Part shown: positions 5,542 to 28,363 of the stretch, in pieces
Numbering within the stretch: the stretch's first letter is position 1
Layout: each line of letters begins with the position of its first letter
Made by a program: the position numbers and the translations under genes
IMG/VR virus record: IMGVR_UViG_3300044617_000730
Coordinates: 1-28,363 of that record
Source: a virus
Reading direction: 5' to 3' (one strand)
DNA: 28,363 bases
The notes under the pieces: model-generated
The model's database searches: none
What the model saw: only the letters and a program-made list of their open reading frames with translations
Told to the model about the DNA's origin: nothing

Positions 5542-5742
5542 ATGATTACTTACTGCGGAAAAAAAACAACGGCCAAAAAACTAGCGCAACGATTACTAGC
5601 AAGCCAAGTGACTATTGTAGGTGAATTTTTTGACGAATTGGCTGGAGTTGATTACTCATCTTTGACCGAAAAAGAAAAACAAGAATGTGAAGAACAAATC
5701 GAAAAATTGGAAAAAAGAATTTTAAAACTTTTAAACGTATAA
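5542..5742 (+). CDS. Small early-type hypothetical protein (66 aa)
   Basis: This 66-aa protein starts at ATG 5542 after a GGGGG sequence. The N-terminus is basic (GKKTTAKKLAQRL), and the C-terminal half is a highly charged helix (about residues 41-64, EKEKQECEEQIEKLEKRILKL split over several heptads) that could form a coiled coil and dimerise. It is the first gene after the divergent control region, and the next gene follows 12 bases later with an AAAGGAG site, so the three small genes are probably one transcript. No family recognised. Confidence 0.55.
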   Translation: MITYCGKKTTAKKLAQRLLASQVTIVGEFFDELAGVDYSSLTEKEKQECEEQIEKLEKRILKLLNV

Positions 5743-5754
5743 AGGAGTATTCAC

Positions 5755-6039
5755 ATGAAAAAGACCACATCCAAGGACACCATCAAGATCATATCAAGGC
5801 TGGCCGATATCAGGTCAGCCAAGGCTGAAATGGCAAAAGAAGAGGAAACCATCAAAGACGCCATCCGCAACATTATGGGCGACGAAACGGCTTTACAGGC
5901 AGGTGATTTCATCGTATTGATCGCCGAGGTCATGCGCACCGACTTGGACAAGAAGGCTTTGGCTGCCGAGCTTGGGGAAAAGCTGAAGCAATTTGAGAAG
6001 CAATCAAGTCATGATCGCATAGAAATTAGGAGGGCTTAA
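5755..6039 (+). CDS. Small charged helical hypothetical protein (94 aa)
   Basis: This 94-aa protein has a good AAAGGAG site just upstream. It is predicted mostly helical: residues about 10-45 are a charged amphipathic stretch (KAEMAKEEETIKDAIRNIMG), followed by a short beta-like segment (DFIVLIAEVMRTDLD) and a second helix (KKALAAELGEKLKQF). The helix - strand - 'D..ALAAELG..L..F' arrangement recalls small phage proteins found near recombination genes, but I cannot name the family. It is the middle gene of the 5542-6241 group, one base before the next start. Confidence 0.6.
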   Translation: MKKTTSKDTIKIISRLADIRSAKAEMAKEEETIKDAIRNIMGDETALQAGDFIVLIAEVMRTDLDKKALAAELGEKLKQFEKQSSHDRIEIRRA

Positions 6040-6040
6040 T

Positions 6041-6241
6041 ATGAATCACCATATATTTATAATAAATAAAATAGATTTAATATCAGGTAAATTACTTGAA
6101 ACCTGTAGGTGGGATTTTAAGGAGGACGCATACAAAGATTTTGATGAAAAATCTGATTTAATGGAAATAGACACCATTATGGTTTTAATTAGGGATAACA
6201 GAAAATCTAAAAAAATAATTTCTCAAAGACAGCGCACTTAA
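6041..6241 (+). CDS. Small hypothetical protein (66 aa)
   Basis: This 66-aa protein starts at ATG 6041, one base after the previous stop, with an AGGAGG site inside the upstream gene's end. The sequence alternates short hydrophobic strands and charged loops (HHIFIINKIDLI, then DTIMVLIRDN near residue 45), suggesting a small alpha/beta fold. Its base composition is more AT-rich than the preceding gene. It is the last gene before a clear terminator. No family recognised. Confidence 0.5.
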   Translation: MNHHIFIINKIDLISGKLLETCRWDFKEDAYKDFDEKSDLMEIDTIMVLIRDNRKSKKIISQRQRT

Positions 6242-6279: not shown

Positions 6280-6325
6280 CCCCGATGTGTGTTAAACTTA
6301 TACAACGCACACATCCTTCGGGGGG
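6280..6325 (+). promoter_or_regulatory. Hairpin masking the ribosome-binding site of the metallophosphoesterase gene
   Basis: A perfect 8-bp inverted repeat GATGTGTG (6284-6291) / CACACATC (6308-6315) is flanked by CCCC (6280-6283) that can pair with GGGG in the G-run at 6320-6325. That G-run is the only ribosome-binding site in front of the TTG start at 6333, so folding would hide it. A CC-TTCG-GG tetraloop (6315-6322) is a competing local fold. Read as DNA, the same repeat would serve as an operator around an AT-rich centre. Confidence 0.5.
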
Positions 6326-6332
6326 CCTACTA

Positions 6333-7070
6333 TTGAAGACCTACCTAATTTTGAGTGACTTGCACGTCCCGTATCACTGCCCGAAGTATATAAAACTTGC
6401 CACAAAAATAATCAAAGAGATCAACGTAGATGGCCTAGTCCAGTTAGGTGATGCCATTGATGCCTTTCAAATAAGCACATATTCAAAAGACCCATCAAGG
6501 CGCAACTTACTAGCCGACGATATTGAAGACTACAAGCAAATGCTCAATGAATGGTCGAGGCACTTGAAATCGGGTGCCTCAATTCATTTACTAGAAGGAA
6601 ATCACGAGCATCGTCTTAGCCGCTACATTGCGGGCAATTGTAGGGATCTGCATGGCCTAGTCCCTGACTGGCCGAGCCTTCTCAATATTGAATTAAGAAA
6701 TAAAGCAAGCCGCCATAAATGGTATTGGCATCGATACACCAAATGGAACTCATGCCAGATCGGCGATACTACCTTGTTACATGGCTTTTATTTCAATCAG
6801 CACTGCGCAGCCACAAGCCTTGCTAAGTACCGTACCAATATCATTTTTGGACATACCCACCGCTTTCAATACATAATGGACGGTGAGCATTTTGCAATCA
6901 GTCTTGGGCATGGCAGCAATGAGAGCGAGACAGCACATCAACCAACCCCAACAGGTTGGGAGCAAGTTATGGCGTTACTCCACGTTGATAATCAAGGCAA
7001 GTCATCAGTAGATATCTTACGGGTCAAAAATGGGAGGACGGTAGTTTATGGCAAAGCCATCTCTGTTTAA
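6333..7070 (+). CDS. Calcineurin-like metallophosphoesterase
   Basis: From the TTG start at 6333 the protein is 245 aa. It has the metal-binding motifs of the metallophosphoesterase fold in order: DLH (D9, H11), GD (D40), GNHE (residues 89-92), a histidine in LLHG (H150) and GHTH (173-176). Such enzymes hydrolyse phosphomono- or diesters using two metal ions. Phage members have been linked to nucleotide or nucleic-acid metabolism, but the substrate cannot be read here. A frame upstream opens at ATG 6285, but those residues do not resemble the family's N-terminus and the codon lies inside the hairpin, while KTYLILSDLH is a typical family start and GGGGGG sits 7 bases before the TTG. It overlaps the next gene by 23 bases. 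Confidence 0.85.
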   Translation: MKTYLILSDLHVPYHCPKYIKLATKIIKEINVDGLVQLGDAIDAFQISTYSKDPSRRNLLADDIEDYKQMLNEWSRHLKSGASIHLLEGNHEHRLSRYIAGNCRDLHGLVPDWPSLLNIELRNKASRHKWYWHRYTKWNSCQIGDTTLLHGFYFNQHCAATSLAKYRTNIIFGHTHRFQYIMDGEHFAISLGHGSNESETAHQPTPTGWEQVMALLHVDNQGKSSVDILRVKNGRTVVYGKAISV

Positions 7071-7356
7071 GCGAAAAAGACCTCCCAGAGTTGTCATGAT
7101 CCTTGGCCACAAGGTTAAAGTCAGAATCATCCCTTACCTTGAAGACAATGGTGAGGAGCTTTACGGGGCTTGGAACTATGATGATAAGACTATCTACCTG
7201 CAAAAAGGCTGTGACTGGCGCAGCGTCTTACTCCATGAGATTTGCCACGCCATATTTAGCCTATCGGGCTGCGCTGAAGGTATTGCCATGGCTAAAGAAG
7301 AAAGCATTGTGGTGGCGTTAGAACACGCATTGCTGCCCATTATTCTGTCTGAATAG
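7048..7356 (+). CDS. Small HExxH zinc metallopeptidase-like protein
   Basis: This 102-aa protein carries the zincin motif LLHEICHAI (H63, E64, H67), with a further acidic ligand candidate in the following helix (KEES, residues 83-86). Before it is a short beta region with a YGAWNYDDKTIYL hairpin, similar in layout to IrrE/ImmA-like and SprT-like minimal metallopeptidases. The catalytic motif and strand-helix order support zinc binding. Proteins like this can cleave regulators, but the substrate is unknown. It overlaps the metallophosphoesterase by 23 bases at its start and the oppositely oriented zinc-ribbon gene by 17 bases at its end. Confidence 0.75.
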   Translation: MAKPSLFKRKRPPRVVMILGHKVKVRIIPYLEDNGEELYGAWNYDDKTIYLQKGCDWRSVLLHEICHAIFSLSGCAEGIAMAKEESIVVALEHALLPIILSE

Positions 7357-7645
7357 AAACTGCCTTTTTTCTACCACCCCGAGGCGGGCCTTTAAAATAT
7401 CCAAGCTCTTTAAGCTTCTCACGGGTGGCTTTGTTAATATTCCAACTTATTTCCATCCCAGGATAGTAGGCAGGGCAGTCCTGGCATCTTTCCACGTCAA
7501 TGTATGGCTTTGGTTTGCCGTATCTCTTACAACAATGAGGGCAGATAAATCCATAGGCAATGGGGTCATTTTCTCTGAAGACATAAAAAGGCTCTGCATA
7601 CCAGTCACGGTATAATCCGGCATCCTCTCCACGCTTGCCACCCAT
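7340..7645 (-). CDS. Zinc-ribbon protein (paralogue 2)
   Basis: This 101-aa protein has four cysteines placed as two pairs: CPHC (35-38) and CQDC (54-57), with KRYG and a short YI strand between them. This is a zinc ribbon, likely binding nucleic acid or a protein partner. The start ATG overlaps the upstream stop by one base (TAATG). The core matches the neighbouring 7645-7863 product almost position by position (YG.ICPHC.KRYG … YI … RC..CPA), so the two arose by tandem duplication. The C-terminal 35 residues are basic (PPRGGRKK). The role is unknown. Confidence 0.7.
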   Translation of the reverse strand: MGGKRGEDAGLYRDWYAEPFYVFRENDPIAYGFICPHCCKRYGKPKPYIDVERCQDCPAYYPGMEISWNINKATREKLKELGYFKGPPRGGRKKAVSIQTE

Positions 7646-7863
7646 TAAAATCCTTTAGCTCTTGACCTTCGCTTTTTATAACCATAATTAACAGGGTAGA
7701 TTGTCATAGAATCCTTAAAAGCAGGACAAGTATTGCATCGAACTATAGTAATATATTCCTGCCTATTTCCATAGCGTTTTTGGCAGTGAGGGCAAATGTG
7801 CCCGTACACTGGCGGGTCAATCCTTGAAGTAAATTGTGGCCTTCGATTTTCAGATCTGAACAT
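7645..7863 (-). CDS. Zinc-ribbon protein (paralogue 1)
   Basis: This 72-aa protein has CPHC (24-27) and CNTC (43-46), followed by a basic C-terminus (KKRRSRAKGF). A GGAG site lies about 8 bases before the ATG at 7863. It is the first gene of a two-gene leftward unit and diverges from the structured RNA region. The N-terminal 18 residues are arginine-rich. The fold is a simple zinc ribbon. A role in binding RNA or DNA is likely from charge, but nothing more specific can be read. Confidence 0.7.
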   Translation of the reverse strand: MFRSENRRPQFTSRIDPPVYGHICPHCQKRYGNRQEYITIVRCNTCPAFKDSMTIYPVNYGYKKRRSRAKGF

Positions 7864-7915
7864 TACTCACACTCCGGCTGATAAGTTTTTTTTCTTTTAC
7901 TAATCGCCTCAGAAT

Positions 7916-7942
7916 TTGTAAACTTAAAACAAGAATCAAAAT
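7916..7942 (+). promoter_or_regulatory. Candidate promoter for the structured RNA
   Basis: TTGTAA (7916-7921) and CAAAAT (7937-7942) are separated by 15 bases, followed directly by the first predicted paired base of the RNA. Both boxes are weak and the spacer is short, so this is only the best candidate in a gene-free stretch. Confidence 0.3.
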
Positions 7943-7943
7943 A

Positions 7944-8427
7944 GACGCTCTACCCACGGTCTGTAAACTGGGTACAAAGTAATGCGAATGGACTTGCATT
8001 AGCGAAAGCTGTCACTTGCGACGAGCAACACAGAAGCTCTAGGTAAAGAAACTGAGTAAATCATAACTGGAGAGTTATTTTTGAAGGGGATTTCTGTACC
8101 TGGAAAATGCTGAAAGATAAAATTCAGTGACTCAGTTATAAGCCTGCCAATGTTCAAGAGCAGGACCCATGATAGTAACTGCAGCAATGCAGCGAGTAGC
8201 ATGGTGGGAGCTTACACCGTACTAGCCCGAGAGGGTTGCCCCCCAAGTAAGTTCTAGGTGAAAGACTGAGAATGATCTAAGGGCTAATGTTTTATTCCTG
8301 CCGGTGGCCTAAGAATCCTGCGGAGCAATAATGCAAAAGTCTATGATCTGTTAACCTCCTAACACTATAGCACAGGGAAACCTGTACTAGCTACTCTGAT
8401 CGAGTAGTAGGGGGGTAAGCTCTTGTC
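7944..8427 (+). ncRNA. Large structured non-coding RNA candidate (about 480 nt)
   Basis: No convincing gene lies between 7864 and 8431, and the stretch is dense in paired helices on the plus strand. The ends pair: GCT-c-TACCC (7947-7955) with GGGTAAGC (8413-8420), extended by GAC / GTC (7944-7946 with 8425-8427). Inside are stems at 7980-7985/7996-8001, 8023-8026/8036-8039, 8050-8057/8130-8137 (perfect 8 bp), 8063-8068/8073-8078 (6 bp), 8110-8114/8123-8127, 8143-8147/8160-8164, 8167-8171/8200-8204, 8179-8183/8188-8192 (GCAA loop), 8208-8215/8247-8254, 8224-8228/8233-8237 (GAGA loop), 8372-8376/8381-8385 (GAAA loop) and 8391-8396/8402-8407. The GNRA loops occur only on this strand, which fixes orientation. 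Size and style recall the large phage RNAs GOLLD and ROOL, but I cannot assign either. No Rho-independent terminator follows. Confidence 0.7.
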
Positions 8428-9449: not shown

Positions 9450-9608
9450 ATGACGCCGTTAACTGATTATAACCGCATCAACATCATCGTACCTAGAGAA
9501 GAGAAAAAAAAGATTGTTGCTTGGTGCCAAGAGCACAAGATGACTCTGACAAGCATCATGCGGATTGCTTTAAGGGATTTTTTTAGAAAGCAGGGGGTCA
9601 AATTATGA
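9450..9608 (+). CDS. Ribbon-helix-helix (Arc/CopG-like) DNA-binding protein
   Basis: A 52-aa frame runs from ATG 9450 to TGA 9608 after an AAAGGAAA site and overlaps the next start in an ATGA junction. The protein has a short N-terminal strand (NRINIIVP), a helix with charged residues (REEKKKIVAWCQEH), and a second helix (TLTSIMRIALRDFFRK). The strand-helix-helix order with a 'T.TS..R.AL..F' second helix is that of ribbon-helix-helix repressors, which bind operators as dimers through the strand. Being first in the recombination operon, it could control that operon, but its target is not visible. Confidence 0.75.
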   Translation: MTPLTDYNRINIIVPREEKKKIVAWCQEHKMTLTSIMRIALRDFFRKQGVKL

Positions 9609-12474: not shown

Positions 12475-12678
12475 ATGCCCCCATGGCTTTTATATCTCCC
12501 CACAATAATCAATGCCCTAGTTCAGCTTGCCAAGCTTCTTATTGACCTTGCCAAAGACAAAGAATCAGACCAAATAAAATCATGTGCTGTTGCGATTGAA
12601 GATGCCAGGAAATCTGGAGACACTTCAAAACTCACTGAACTCATTGAAAAAATGAGGAAAGGTAAGCCATGCGATTAA
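12475..12678 (+). CDS. Small membrane-anchored protein (67 aa)
   Basis: From ATG 12475, with GAGGT just upstream, the protein has a hydrophobic N-terminus (residues about 2-25, PPWLLYLPTIINALVQLAKLL) that should anchor it in the membrane, then a charged helical tail (ESDQIKSCAVAIEDARKSGD … LIEKMRKGK). A GTG two codons upstream is an alternative start. It overlaps the exported protein by 10 bases. The layout is holin- or regulator-like, but no family is recognised. Confidence 0.55.
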   Translation: MPPWLLYLPTIINALVQLAKLLIDLAKDKESDQIKSCAVAIEDARKSGDTSKLTELIEKMRKGKPCD

Positions 12679-13454
12679 TATACTGGTTGATCCTGGGAGC
12701 AATTGCGTTTTGTATTTCCACGTCTTTGATGGCAGAAAATGAAGAGCCACGCAAAGAAGATTACAAGATAGCCCGCAGATATGGTTATTTAAAATCAGAT
12801 GTCTTTGAAGCCTACCGGCAAAAAAAATCAGAAGTAAATATTGATAAGCTCAATAAAGAAATAAAAAAGAAACTATCTGGCACTGACTTTGACAGGGCTA
12901 CATTGATAGAAGAAACGCTTGATAACCTCATTGGTAGGGCTGTCCTGGTTTTAAGTTATGAAGGTCACAATTCATTAGCCGATGATATTGGCTATGAATA
13001 CGAGCAATTTTACCGCTTCGCTTTGACAAAGCACCTGCTTGGCATCGATGAAATTGGAGACCACCCTCCAATGAACGAGTGGCTTGATAGTGTGCACAAA
13101 AGGATACACGATGCCATCGGCGATATGCTTTGCCAATATTTTAGATTTCACGATATCTACATTTTAAATCACGGCATCCCTGTTGTTTTTCGTCCTGGCC
13201 TCTATGATCTGAAAGATTACAAAGACCACTTTGCAGGCCATTTAATTTGGGGTTGGTGGTGGGAGCATCACGGAGTTGCTGGAGTTGTAGCCTTTTGGCT
13301 AGTTGACGGGGCTTGCATTGCTGGAAGTTACGGGCTAGGAGTCATAACTTTCGTTTGCACACCTATCGCCACGCTTGCTCAGAATGTAATGGACAAGCAC
13401 ATTGCGCCGCCACTCGCCGAAGCCATCTGGAAGAGAGCGCAAGAGGATAATTAA
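12669..13454 (+). CDS. Exported or membrane protein of unknown function (261 aa)
   Basis: The N-terminus is a signal peptide (residues 1-22, ending SLMA before ENEEP), so the protein leaves the cytoplasm through Sec. Residues about 25-100 are charged and helical, 110-190 are rich in aromatic residues and histidines, and a hydrophobic region near residues 205-240 (GVVAFWLVDGACIAG … GVITFVCTPIATLA) probably re-enters the membrane. No catalytic motif is recognised. In its position, at the end of an early-type transcript with its own promoter, a superinfection-exclusion or envelope role is possible but speculative. Its last 120 bases overlap the opposing LysR-like gene. Confidence 0.7.
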   Translation: MRLIYWLILGAIAFCISTSLMAENEEPRKEDYKIARRYGYLKSDVFEAYRQKKSEVNIDKLNKEIKKKLSGTDFDRATLIEETLDNLIGRAVLVLSYEGHNSLADDIGYEYEQFYRFALTKHLLGIDEIGDHPPMNEWLDSVHKRIHDAIGDMLCQYFRFHDIYILNHGIPVVFRPGLYDLKDYKDHFAGHLIWGWWWEHHGVAGVVAFWLVDGACIAGSYGLGVITFVCTPIATLAQNVMDKHIAPPLAEAIWKRAQEDN

Positions 13455-13682
13455 GGATTCCCTGGCCGCCATGGCAACTGGTAATCCATGGCTTGTAAGC
13501 CTAACGCCTCTGCCTATTCTGATAGTAATTGCAAAGCCTAAAAGCCTTCGCATCTTGCCAAGTCTTTGAGTTATGGCTGGCTGTGTTAGGTTTAATTTGT
13601 CACCAATTTCTGTGACAGAAATTTCATCTATCAACAAAGATAGAATCAACAAGTCATCAATATCTAGTCCTCGTAAAATCAT
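13335..13682 (-). CDS. LysR-type HTH-only DNA-binding protein (115 aa)
   Basis: Residues about 8-65 match the winged HTH of LysR regulators: a first helix (DDLLILSLLIDE), the HTH (VTEIGDKLNLTQPAITQRLGKMRRLLG, about 23-49, split helices) and the wing with RIGRGVRLTSHG. The usual 200-aa effector domain is absent, so this is either a minimal regulator or a truncated remnant. The C-terminal third lies antisense to the end of the exported protein gene over 120 bases, which makes that tail less certain. It could regulate the nearby promoters at 13691 and 13774, but no operator is identified. Confidence 0.65.
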   Translation of the reverse strand: MILRGLDIDDLLILSLLIDEISVTEIGDKLNLTQPAITQRLGKMRRLLGFAITIRIGRGVRLTSHGLPVAMAARESLIILLRSLPDGFGEWRRNVLVHYILSKRGDRCANESYDS

Positions 13683-13740
13683 AAATCACATGATATAATA
13701 ATTTGTTCATATTGAATACTCCGTTCATAGGTTTAACTGG

Positions 13741-13770
13741 AAGGCTTGGCATTTATGCTGGGCCTTTTGT
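13741..13770 (+). terminator. Rho-independent terminator-like hairpin 1
   Basis: AAGGC-TT-GGCA pairs with TGCT-GG-GCCTT (11 bp, three of them wobble pairs) around a TTTA loop, followed by TTGTTTG. It would end transcripts from the exported protein gene. Confidence 0.55.
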
Positions 13771-13773
13771 TTG

Positions 13774-13782
13774 TGATATAAT
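13774..13782 (+). promoter_or_regulatory. Extended -10 promoter before a short transcript
   Basis: TGATATAAT is a perfect extended -10 box. Its transcript would start near 13789 and meet a second terminator about 50 bases later, with no gene between. A similar TGATATAAT occurs at 13691-13699. Confidence 0.5.
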
Positions 13783-13802
13783 TAAAGTGCTGCGCTCCTC
13801 AT

Positions 13803-13842
13803 GGAAGGCTCACTTTAGTCTCTCGGTGGGCCTTTCATTTTT
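13803..13842 (+). terminator. Rho-independent terminator 2
   Basis: GGAAGGCTCAC (13803-13813) pairs with GTGGGCCTTTC (13826-13836) over 11 bp (two wobble pairs), followed by ATTTTTG. It overlaps the 3' end of the leftward nuclease gene. Its arms nearly repeat those of hairpin 1 (TGGAAGGCT and GGGCCTTT are shared). Confidence 0.75.
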
Positions 13843-14159
13843 GAGGCACTTGCAACAAATTCTCTGATTTCATCTTTAGACCTAAGCACTACGGCAATTG
13901 CGCCACTAAGATTTAGTTTAGCAATCCAGTCAACTTGCTCAGGTGATAACCTTCCCTTGTCAGTTTTTAACTCGATAGCAAAAAACTTGCCTGACGGTAA
14001 CACTCCGGCCAGGTCAGGAAAGCCTTTGATTGGGCTACATTTGCGGATCATTTTGCCGTTAATCGAATGCATCACTGGGCCATTTGGCACTCGCCAGTAA
14101 ACCAAACCAGACTGCTTTAAACAGGTGATAGCAAAGCTTAAAAGTTCAGCTTCTTTCAT
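13815..14159 (-). CDS. VRR-NUC domain nuclease
   Basis: From ATG 14159, with GAGG 8 bases before it, the protein is 114 aa. It carries the nuclease core of VRR-NUC proteins: a G.PD motif in GFPDLAG (D49), an E.K motif in AIELKTDKG (E63, K65), and a following helix with SPEQVDWI (Q75), then an ALVVL-like strand and an R.…EI. end. VRR-NUC enzymes are PD-(D/E)XK-type nucleases often acting on branched or unusual DNA, so it may serve recombination or packaging. A TTG five codons upstream is an alternative start. The gene stands alone after a strong terminator. Confidence 0.8.
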   Translation of the reverse strand: MKEAELLSFAITCLKQSGLVYWRVPNGPVMHSINGKMIRKCSPIKGFPDLAGVLPSGKFFAIELKTDKGRLSPEQVDWIAKLNLSGAIAVVLRSKDEIREFVASASKMKGPPRD

Positions 14160-26761: not shown

Positions 26762-27331
26762 TTTTTAACCTCATCTCTTCAGCCTGGCACTTGTCCATTT
26801 CAACATCGATTATACCAAAAATTTCAGCTTTAAGCGCATCCATGTCAGAGATATTTGACGTGTAACCCAGCTTCGCCAATCTTTTTCTTTGCAGGTATTC
26901 AGCTACAAACGGGGCTGCTTCATTTGACAGGCTTGAGCCTTTAAAACAGGCCCTTGCTTGCATCCTAATGGCAGCCTTTAGCCGTTTCCCACCTTAAATC
27001 CATTCAGCAACATTCCAGCGATTTCAACCATTGCAGGATGCAACTCCTCAACGTATTGCATCTCGTCAAATGATTTAACCTCTTCACCGGTTTTTTTGCT
27101 TTTAAGACTTACCTCTTGGTAATGATCTTTGGAAATCTTTACCATTTCTCTAACAGATTTAAGCCTTTGAACTTGATTACCTTCCACAGTTCCGTCATCA
27201 CTGACAGTAACCTGGAGTCGCTCGATATAATCAAACTTTTCATCAAATGTAGGCAAGCGGAGAGTAACGCTCCCCTCCCAAGTTGCGTTATCTCCCTTGC
27301 ACACCGTTGGCACAATCTTAATTGTCTTCAT
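26748..27331 (-). CDS. Tail assembly chaperone, frameshifted long form (GT-like)
   Basis: A -1 frameshift at GGGAAAC (26990-26984) in the short-form gene moves the ribosome into the frame that ends at 26748. The product would be about 194 aa: the first 116 residues of the short form, then RLKAAIR and the 71 residues of the second frame. Its second part contains a helical FVAEYLQRKRLAKLG and an acidic DMDALKAEIFGII. The pattern equals the lambda G/GT arrangement, in which the long and short forms help the tail tube polymerise on the tape measure protein. The second frame has no good start of its own (its first ATG at 26963 lacks a clear ribosome site) and ends inside the tape measure start. 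Confidence 0.85.
26978..27331 (-). CDS. Tail assembly chaperone, short form (G-like)
   Basis: This 117-aa protein begins MKTIKIVPTVCKGDNATWEGSV and has a mixed strand and helix layout ending VEIAGMLLNGFKVGNG. It lies between the tail tube and the tape measure genes, the usual place of the tail assembly chaperone pair. The terminal codons GTG-GGA-AAC-GGC-TAA contain the slippery heptamer, so most ribosomes would stop here to give this short form and a minority would shift. Related G-type proteins bind the tape measure protein. Confidence 0.85.
   Translation of the reverse strand: MKTIKIVPTVCKGDNATWEGSVTLRLPTFDEKFDYIERLQVTVSDDGTVEGNQVQRLKSVREMVKISKDHYQEVSLKSKKTGEEVKSFDEMQYVEELHPAMVEIAGMLLNGFKVGNG
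26984..26990 (-). promoter_or_regulatory. Programmed -1 ribosomal frameshift site (GGGAAAC)
   Basis: In the zero frame the heptamer reads G-GGA-AAC, matching X-XXY-YYZ, three bases before GGC-TAA, the end of the short chaperone form. Slipping gives R-L-K-A-A-I-R before the second frame. A short GGC..GCC pairing just downstream is weak, so a strong stimulatory structure is not obvious. Confidence 0.8.
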
Positions 27332-27340
27332 TGTTACCTC

Positions 27341-28363
27341 TTAGACAAAGGCAACGTATACCTCGCCATCACCGTCTGAGTTTACAAATGCTTGCAACTC
27401 AAGATCTAGCTGAGCCAATCCATCGGCATCACTAACAGAGAAGGCTGATATTGTTGCGGTTGGTACATATAGACATCCTGCCTTACCAGGTGCCCAGTTT
27501 CCACCGCTTTTTTGTCCGAAGCTGTATTGAAATTTTACGTCAGTATTTTGACGGAAACGCTCAAACTGCTTTGCATCATATTTTTCAAGCAAGGCCGATA
27601 CAGAGATTGTAACAGTCCTAGCGTTGATAATAGAGCCTTGCACACCAGATGCAGCACATACCGAAGGAATATCAGCTTTTGGCGTGTCAATTGTCATGTT
27701 TACAGTAGATGCTTTGAAGCAAGCATACTCTGAACCTAGTCCAAGCATAACCTCGTTATCTTTGGCAGCTAGTGGGTCAGCATTGTCAAATGCAGGAGTT
27801 TGAGGAGAGCTAAAATCAACAGCCTCATCAGACTCATAGCTAAGTGCTCCTGTGTCATCAGCCGTAAAGCCCAAAGCTGCGCCAGCCGTATCAACTCCAG
27901 TAGCCCAGTCAATGTCTAAAGTACCAGCCGCTTTTGAAACTGTGAATTTGCCGTTAGCAGATGAATAGACGCAATCAATTGCAGTTCCAGCCGCAGCCGT
28001 CATAGCTTGTGCTACAGCTTCAGCAAGCTCTAGCGGTGTCTTATAAAGCTTTTGTTGTAATGTAGCTGTGACAGTGCCAGCACCAATATCAAAATCGATT
28101 TTATCTGCGCCAGCTTCGATTTCCATAGGATCGAAGTAATAACCAACACCTTCAAGGCTGTAGCTTGCATTGATAAGCTCACCTGCGGAGATATCAAAGC
28201 TTGCAGACGTTACTCGGCTGCCGGCCATGGCTTGCAATGCTCCGCCTTGGCCAAGGTAATGCCAAAGTGTCAGTGTTGGATGGCTATCATTTGCTGGCTT
28301 GTAAAGTACGCATTTGCCTAGATCTGTTCCGGCAGGAGTAGCCACAGGAGTGACAAAGCCCAT
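27341..28363 (-). CDS. Major tail tube protein (possibly truncated at the right edge)
   Basis: This 340-aa open frame ends at the right edge with an ATG at 28363-28361, but the true start may lie beyond the window. The C-terminal part (about residues 230-340, with VNMTIDTPKAD … TVTISVSALLEKYDAKQFERFR and TATISAFSVSDADGLAQLDLELQAFV) has the strand-helix-strand pattern of phage tail tube proteins, which stack in rings to form the tail lumen. The middle (about 85-165) contains an inserted A/G-rich beta domain. Position just upstream of the tail chaperones supports the call. The family assignment is from synteny and strand pattern. Confidence 0.75.
   Translation of the reverse strand: MGFVTPVATPAGTDLGKCVLYKPANDSHPTLTLWHYLGQGGALQAMAGSRVTSASFDISAGELINASYSLEGVGYYFDPMEIEAGADKIDFDIGAGTVTATLQQKLYKTPLELAEAVAQAMTAAAGTAIDCVYSSANGKFTVSKAAGTLDIDWATGVDTAGAALGFTADDTGALSYESDEAVDFSSPQTPAFDNADPLAAKDNEVMLGLGSEYACFKASTVNMTIDTPKADIPSVCAASGVQGSIINARTVTISVSALLEKYDAKQFERFRQNTDVKFQYSFGQKSGGNWAPGKAGCLYVPTATISAFSVSDADGLAQLDLELQAFVNSDGDGEVYVAFV

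Follow-up and report, generated by a model that had tools for sequence, protein, structure and literature searches.

Plasmid ColE1 has no initiator protein of its own, and a structured RNA of about 550 nt opens its origin and primes synthesis (PMC5043065). In SPP1, the direct repeats of oriL lie within gene 38, which encodes the origin-binding protein, and an AT-rich region forms part of the origin (PMC6316719). Phages also carry large, elaborate RNAs without a protein product, such as GOLLD and ROOL, the function of which is unknown; GOLLD rises during lysis (PMC12286853). The locus described here can be set beside each of these systems.

The stretch analysed (the window) is an IMG/VR virus record of 28,363 bases that carries phage genes, including terminases, a portal-size ORF, tail genes, Erf, SSB and an endolysin. 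It is a contig of a little-known bacterial virus group and covers 28.4 kb of a phage genome of about 36 kb. A structured non-coding RNA of about 500 nt occupies positions 7929–8427 of the plus strand, opposite in orientation to the genes on either side. To its left is a small zinc-ribbon-like ORF (7645–7863, minus strand; 98.6% identity in phage G002, 48% in phage G005), and to its right an endolysin gene (VanY/M15 peptidase, Pfam PF02557; 8940–9410, minus strand; 70–92% identity in the other three phages, G002, G003 and G005). An HNH endonuclease gene (151 aa, PF14279/PF01844; 8432–8887, minus strand) lies outside the RNA gene, 5 nt past its end. There are no tRNA or tmRNA genes in the window. 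A 261-aa protein encoded at 12,669–13,454 is kept in all four phages (74–96%) and has no match in Pfam, PHROG or NCBIfam.

The RNA block has a homologue in G005 (73% DNA identity, E 1.3e-69), found by way of a large-terminase profile. A third copy, L069, came from a later DNA-pattern scan; it is partial, being truncated where its contig stops, and matches G005 at 90% and the window at 78% identity. Relatives were sought through the HNH, terminase and endolysin proteins, of which only the terminase scan yielded G005. A further contig, G001, belongs to the window phage itself (100% over 9 kb) and was not counted as independent, so that the sample consists of three distinct sequences, one of them partial. 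The RNA is conserved at about the level of core genes, and in synteny, across phages that are 76% identical in the terminase region. In G005, whose contig is short of some end-proximal sequence, the RNA has the start codon of the zinc-ribbon ORF on one side and the stop codon of the endolysin gene on the other, with no further gene between. Because the RNA there directly adjoins both flanking genes, the HNH gene is a separate and probably later neighbour. It is confined to the window phage and G001, being absent from G005, G002 and G003, and is likely a recent free-standing homing-type gene; the N-terminal part of its protein is cysteine-rich.

Other copies were looked for widely. A blastn search of the block against phage and plasmid records gave no meaningful match, and when genomes of IMG/VR and GTDB were scanned with DNA patterns, just chance matches, mostly in coding sequence, came up beyond G001, G005 and L069. 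A covariance model (R1) run over the collected loci recovered the known copies only. The same model found no match in some 800 genomes drawn from two phyla, a negative of little weight, as the host may well belong elsewhere.

An earlier reading of the window by itself (the original prediction) had proposed that the block contains no gene and is a large structured RNA, possibly of a new class. On the first point, the sole ORF in the block (67 aa, 7999–8202, minus strand) has no Pfam match and is not a credible gene, and a coding reading is ruled out by indels of 5 and 8 nt and by the lack of any frame in common. On the second, compensatory changes in homologues from two other phage contigs establish a structured RNA, and an RNA of about 500 nt on the plus strand is almost certainly real. 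It had also been held that the density of stems goes beyond chance. This is not apparent from folding energy alone, the single-sequence z being −2.71 on the plus strand and −1.89 on the minus strand, with the block ranking 8th by folding among 120 windows of 480 nt taken from both strands of the contig; it becomes apparent from covariation with the homologues. Two mostly coding stretches of the window, 26,881–27,360 (minus strand) and 13,441–13,920 (plus strand), have stronger folding z values (−5.2 and −4.2, 25 shuffles) than the RNA. Single-sequence folding energy is suggestive only, and the structure is proved by the comparison of homologues.

A curated model of 21 helices, which bears out the many stems first described, was built on the alignment of the window, G005 and L069. 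Between the window and G005, its 110 pairs comprise 79 that are the same, 24 double changes (a figure that includes two hand-moved gaps, in H8 and H14), 5 one-sided changes and 2 broken pairs. RNAalifold, used without hand-picked helices, gave −125.3 kcal/mol and 30 double-change pairs on the plus strand, compared with −53 (sd 6) kcal/mol and 8.3 (sd 2.7, maximum 16) double-change pairs in 200 column shuffles that kept the conservation pattern. This comparison ran on the alignment with two gaps moved by hand; the energy for the unadjusted alignment is −118.75. In the core covered by all three sequences (8037–8205), counted on the unadjusted MAFFT alignment with neither gap move included, 99% of pair cells are paired and 14 pairs show double changes. 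None of 500 shuffles matched the observed pairing, and slid-partner controls were 31–45% paired.

The plus strand is favoured by its G-U pairs (10 G-U cells against 1 A-C cell) and by its GNRA loops. The three loops named in the original prediction are present (GCAA at 8184–8187, GAGA at 8229–8232 and GAAA at 8377–8380), and loops of GNRA type are found on this strand only. The minus-strand reading is disfavoured both by the G-U/A-C count and by RNAalifold, which gave −118.7 kcal/mol and 23 double-change pairs for it.

The predicted fold is a hub with about seven arms, in which a terminal helix joins the two ends of the RNA (all coordinates on the plus strand). An end-closing helix had been expected and is present, but it is formed by 7929–7934/8421–8426 (H1a) and 7947–7949/8418–8420 (H1b) rather than by 7944–7955/8413–8427; its 9 pairs are kept, with one C-G to U-G change. 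Next come two hairpins with double changes, H2 (7951–7955/7970–7974; U-A to C-G) and H3 (7980–7985/7996–8001; A-U to G-C), the latter with a conserved loop, GAAYGGACUU. The H4/H5 stem (8009–8012/8030–8033 and 8016–8019/8025–8028) is mostly invariant, and its single C-A in G005 is U-A in L069. The H6/H7/H8 stem (8038–8045/8097–8104, 8048–8051/8091–8094 and 8065–8068/8073–8076) has double changes in 8 of its 16 pairs and one unpaired cell in L069. Hairpin H9 (8109–8114/8123–8128) also shows double changes, one pair appearing as G-U, G-C and U-A.

A long-range helix, H10 (8131–8137/8264–8270), encloses H11 to H15. The original prediction had picked out a perfect 8-bp helix, 8050–8057/8130–8137, which exists in the window but is not conserved, its 5′ strand in G005 being an unpaired GAUUAAG; its 3′ strand (8131–8137) pairs instead with 8264–8270 in H10, where a G-C to A-U compensatory change is found. 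Within H10, hairpin H11 (8143–8147/8160–8164) is kept in all three copies, and its 12-nt loop, CAAUGUUCAAGA, is near-invariant, with one change, in L069. The H12/H13 stem (8167–8171/8200–8204 and 8179–8183/8188–8192) shows four double changes and a swap between two stable tetraloop types, GCAA and CUUG: the H13 hairpin reads CUGCA-GCAA-UGCAG in the window, CGGUA-CUUG-UACCG in G005 and CUGUA-GCAA-UACAG in L069. In helix H14 (8208–8215/8247–8254), five of eight pairs are double-changed and there is a further G-U to A-U change, but this helix depends on the adjusted alignment, since a single moved gap restored eight pairs that were out of register in the first alignment. Inside it is the GNRA hairpin H15, with the loop GAGA in the window and GAAA in G005. 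The remaining part consists of H16 (8274–8277/8345–8348; two of four pairs double-changed), which has a variable interior containing the short conserved hairpin H20 (8300–8308), and the 3′ domain H17/H18/H19 (8355–8414), where 15 of 18 pairs are unchanged, two are changed on one side and one is broken. The 3′ domain includes an invariant GAAA hairpin (8372–8385) and the helix 8391–8396/8402–8407.

For the segment 8208–8215 there are two possible partners, 8247–8254 and 8415–8422, which are nearly identical, and G005 retains both pairings, shifted by one base. Minimum-energy folding prefers 8415–8422, whereas the covarying helix is the local one (8247–8254). In the window their energies hardly differ (−153.2 and −152.0), while in G005 the local pairing wins by 5 kcal/mol. 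These alternative pairings are a possible conformational switch. There is also an internal repeat, AAGYTCTAGGTRAAR..ACTGAG, at 8034–8056 and 8249–8270; the best alignment between the two halves was reached by 1–3 of 500 shuffles, and the repeat is weaker in G005.

Just upstream of the closing helix is a promoter-like element, TTTACT-N17-TAAACT (7896–7924, plus strand), with 8 of 12 matches to the sigma-70 consensus. The hexamers do not vary among the three copies (window, G005 and L069), while in the spacer the window and G005 agree at 6 of 17 positions. An alternative reading of the hexamers is a short helix (H0), which shows no covariation; they are taken here as a putative promoter. The RNA would then be transcribed on the plus strand from its own promoter, starting at about 7930–7932, at the closing helix. 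One promoter-like site on the minus strand (7967–7938), of the kind that an antisense regulator comparable to ColE1 RNA I would need, is no better than chance. At the 3′ end, sequence conservation stops just past AAGCTCTTGT, at about 8427, and no intrinsic terminator was seen there. The end-to-end closing helix and the sharp 3′ limit of conservation suggest a discrete RNA. These features bear on whether the block is instead a long structured cis leader, acting by attenuation or antitermination, of the rightward early operon that begins at 9450 downstream of the RNA and on the same strand. About 1 kb containing the antisense HNH and endolysin genes lies between the RNA and that operon, and the leader reading is quite improbable.

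The RNA belongs to a class absent from Rfam. The window copy had no match at the gathering score, and for both it and the G005 copy, searches at E ≤ 10 gave unrelated chance matches only. The models for GOLLD, ROOL and OLE found nothing, so the suggestion that the block might be GOLLD, ROOL or a distant relative was not upheld. The checks proposed with the original prediction, for compensatory changes, a conserved coding frame and a match to a known element, have thus been run: the first were found and the other two were not. Group I and group II introns were rejected, with no Rfam model matching and with the zinc-ribbon and endolysin ORFs intact in both the window and G005. The HEARO/IscB omega RNA was rejected likewise: although an HNH gene adjoins the RNA, as in HEARO/IscB guide RNAs, no covariance model matched, the protein has an HNH domain only, and the gene is not beside the G005 copy. 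The guide-RNA reading falls together with these. A related idea, raised because the HNH gene is adjacent, is that the RNA is the relic of a self-splicing intron or of an RNA-guided nuclease element. The gene is 5 nt away and its HNH domain is weakly similar to IscB, but at 42 bits it is far below the cut-off of 175, no intron or HEARO model matched, the flanking genes are intact and G005 has the RNA without the HNH gene; we consider this origin very improbable.

The likeness to GOLLD and ROOL is one of kind, that of a large and ornately folded phage RNA. Islands of tRNA genes are often found close to GOLLD and ROOL, whereas the present RNA is smaller (about 500 nt), has no tRNA neighbours and occupies a locus that alternates with a helicase-loader gene. 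It might nevertheless be a trans-acting or scaffolding ornate RNA of that sort, perhaps multimeric and late or lysis-linked, with its position in the loader slot a coincidence of recombination. The size class is similar, GNRA-type loops are many and the multi-arm fold is closed; GOLLD and ROOL are phage RNAs, GOLLD rises in lysis (PMC12286853), and the locus adjoins an endolysin gene. Such a role is somewhat unlikely, given that no GOLLD, ROOL or OLE model matched, that no tRNA is nearby and that the loss of the loader and its repeats in the RNA-bearing phages, described below, would be left unexplained.

In G002 and G003 there is no RNA, and its place, flanked here too by the endolysin and zinc-ribbon genes, is taken by a DnaD-like helicase-loader gene. 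The G003 loader protein matches phrog_2514 (E 2.6e-25). The swap is seen in two pairs of phages, which is few: G005 and G003 share 90–99% residue identity in most virion proteins, and the window (G000) and G002 share 80–98% in most proteins, yet within each pair the slot holds RNA in one and the loader in the other. In both G003 and G002, the loader gene contains the strongest tandem array detected in its genome, a 12-mer repeated 5.2 times (score 103, L028:14578–14639) and an 11-mer repeated 5.3 times (score 88, L006:262–320), respectively. These iteron-like arrays differ in sequence, have an A-rich stretch next to them and are probable replication origins. The arrangement resembles SPP1 gene 38 in its DnaD-like protein, its in-gene direct repeats and the A-rich stretch alongside; the difference is that the RNA-bearing phages have neither the gene nor the repeats in the available sequence. 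Their best tandem scores there are 51, 44, 34 and 40, with no such array. Tblastn with the relatives' loader found no match in these incomplete genomes, and no initiator was found among their scanned ORFs, many small ones of which are unassigned; as the genomes are incomplete, a different loader could be hidden. The sizeable non-structural ORFs of the window have homologues in the loader-bearing relatives, except for the HNH gene and three small ORFs (5542–6241).

Two further genes and one contig may be described here. The metallophosphoesterase allele (6285–7070) tracks the content of the slot, with 75–80% identity among the window, G005 and L069 and 36–40% to G002 and G003. The adjoining peptidase gene (7048–7356) follows overall kinship. 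The G002 contig (L006/L007) has an 87-base repeat at both ends, and its map, of about 36.4 kb, is probably circular and complete.

Since its slot is that of the relatives' loader gene and repeat array, the RNA may do the job of a replication protein. We tentatively favour the view that the RNA locus serves as an alternative module for initiating replication, while holding it at rather less than even likelihood. Marginally more doubtful is the evolutionary counterpart, that a phage lineage exchanged its protein initiator or helicase loader and iteron origin for a replication-starting RNA of 500 nt, a replacement of protein by RNA between close relatives. Under this scheme, a stand-alone RNA gene of about 500 nt would give a transcript that folds and stays at, or returns to, its own locus. 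The RNA would open or prime the origin, and the host would load its helicase with neither an initiator nor a loader from the phage. The likeness to ColE1 RNA II is one of proposed mechanism and not of family: a structured RNA of about 500–550 nt, with a promoter (here putative) of its own, in a replicon that, in the phage case, may lack its own initiator protein. The present RNA differs in belonging to a phage.

The same swap can be read in other ways. The RNA and the loader could be two cargoes with no connection to each other at a hot spot of recombination, the slot being merely variable. The replication reading is itself weakened by the HNH gene of the window: lying 5 nt past the RNA end, it would come between the RNA and a start site at any fixed position downstream. 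The RNA may also be an accessory (moron-like) gene in a variable slot, serving for example in counter-defence or host take-over, as its own promoter-like element, its orientation opposite to its neighbours, the swap with an unrelated gene and the HNH gene inserted alongside would fit. However, it is conserved at close to core-gene level in synteny and a helicase loader is an unusual accessory cargo, and an accessory role is accordingly judged unlikely.

Large RNA classes that are new and show covariation are, to our knowledge, rare, and in this case the helicase loader and repeat array that occupy the same slot in its relatives give a direct hint of function. If the proposed role in replication fails, the RNA still stands as a new class with good support, for which ends and helices are defined and a seed for a covariance model exists. 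The question posed by the locus is whether a structured RNA can replace a replication protein in a phage. If the proposal is true, these viruses would offer an RNA origin in a phage and a natural case in which, among close relatives, an RNA has taken the place of a protein.
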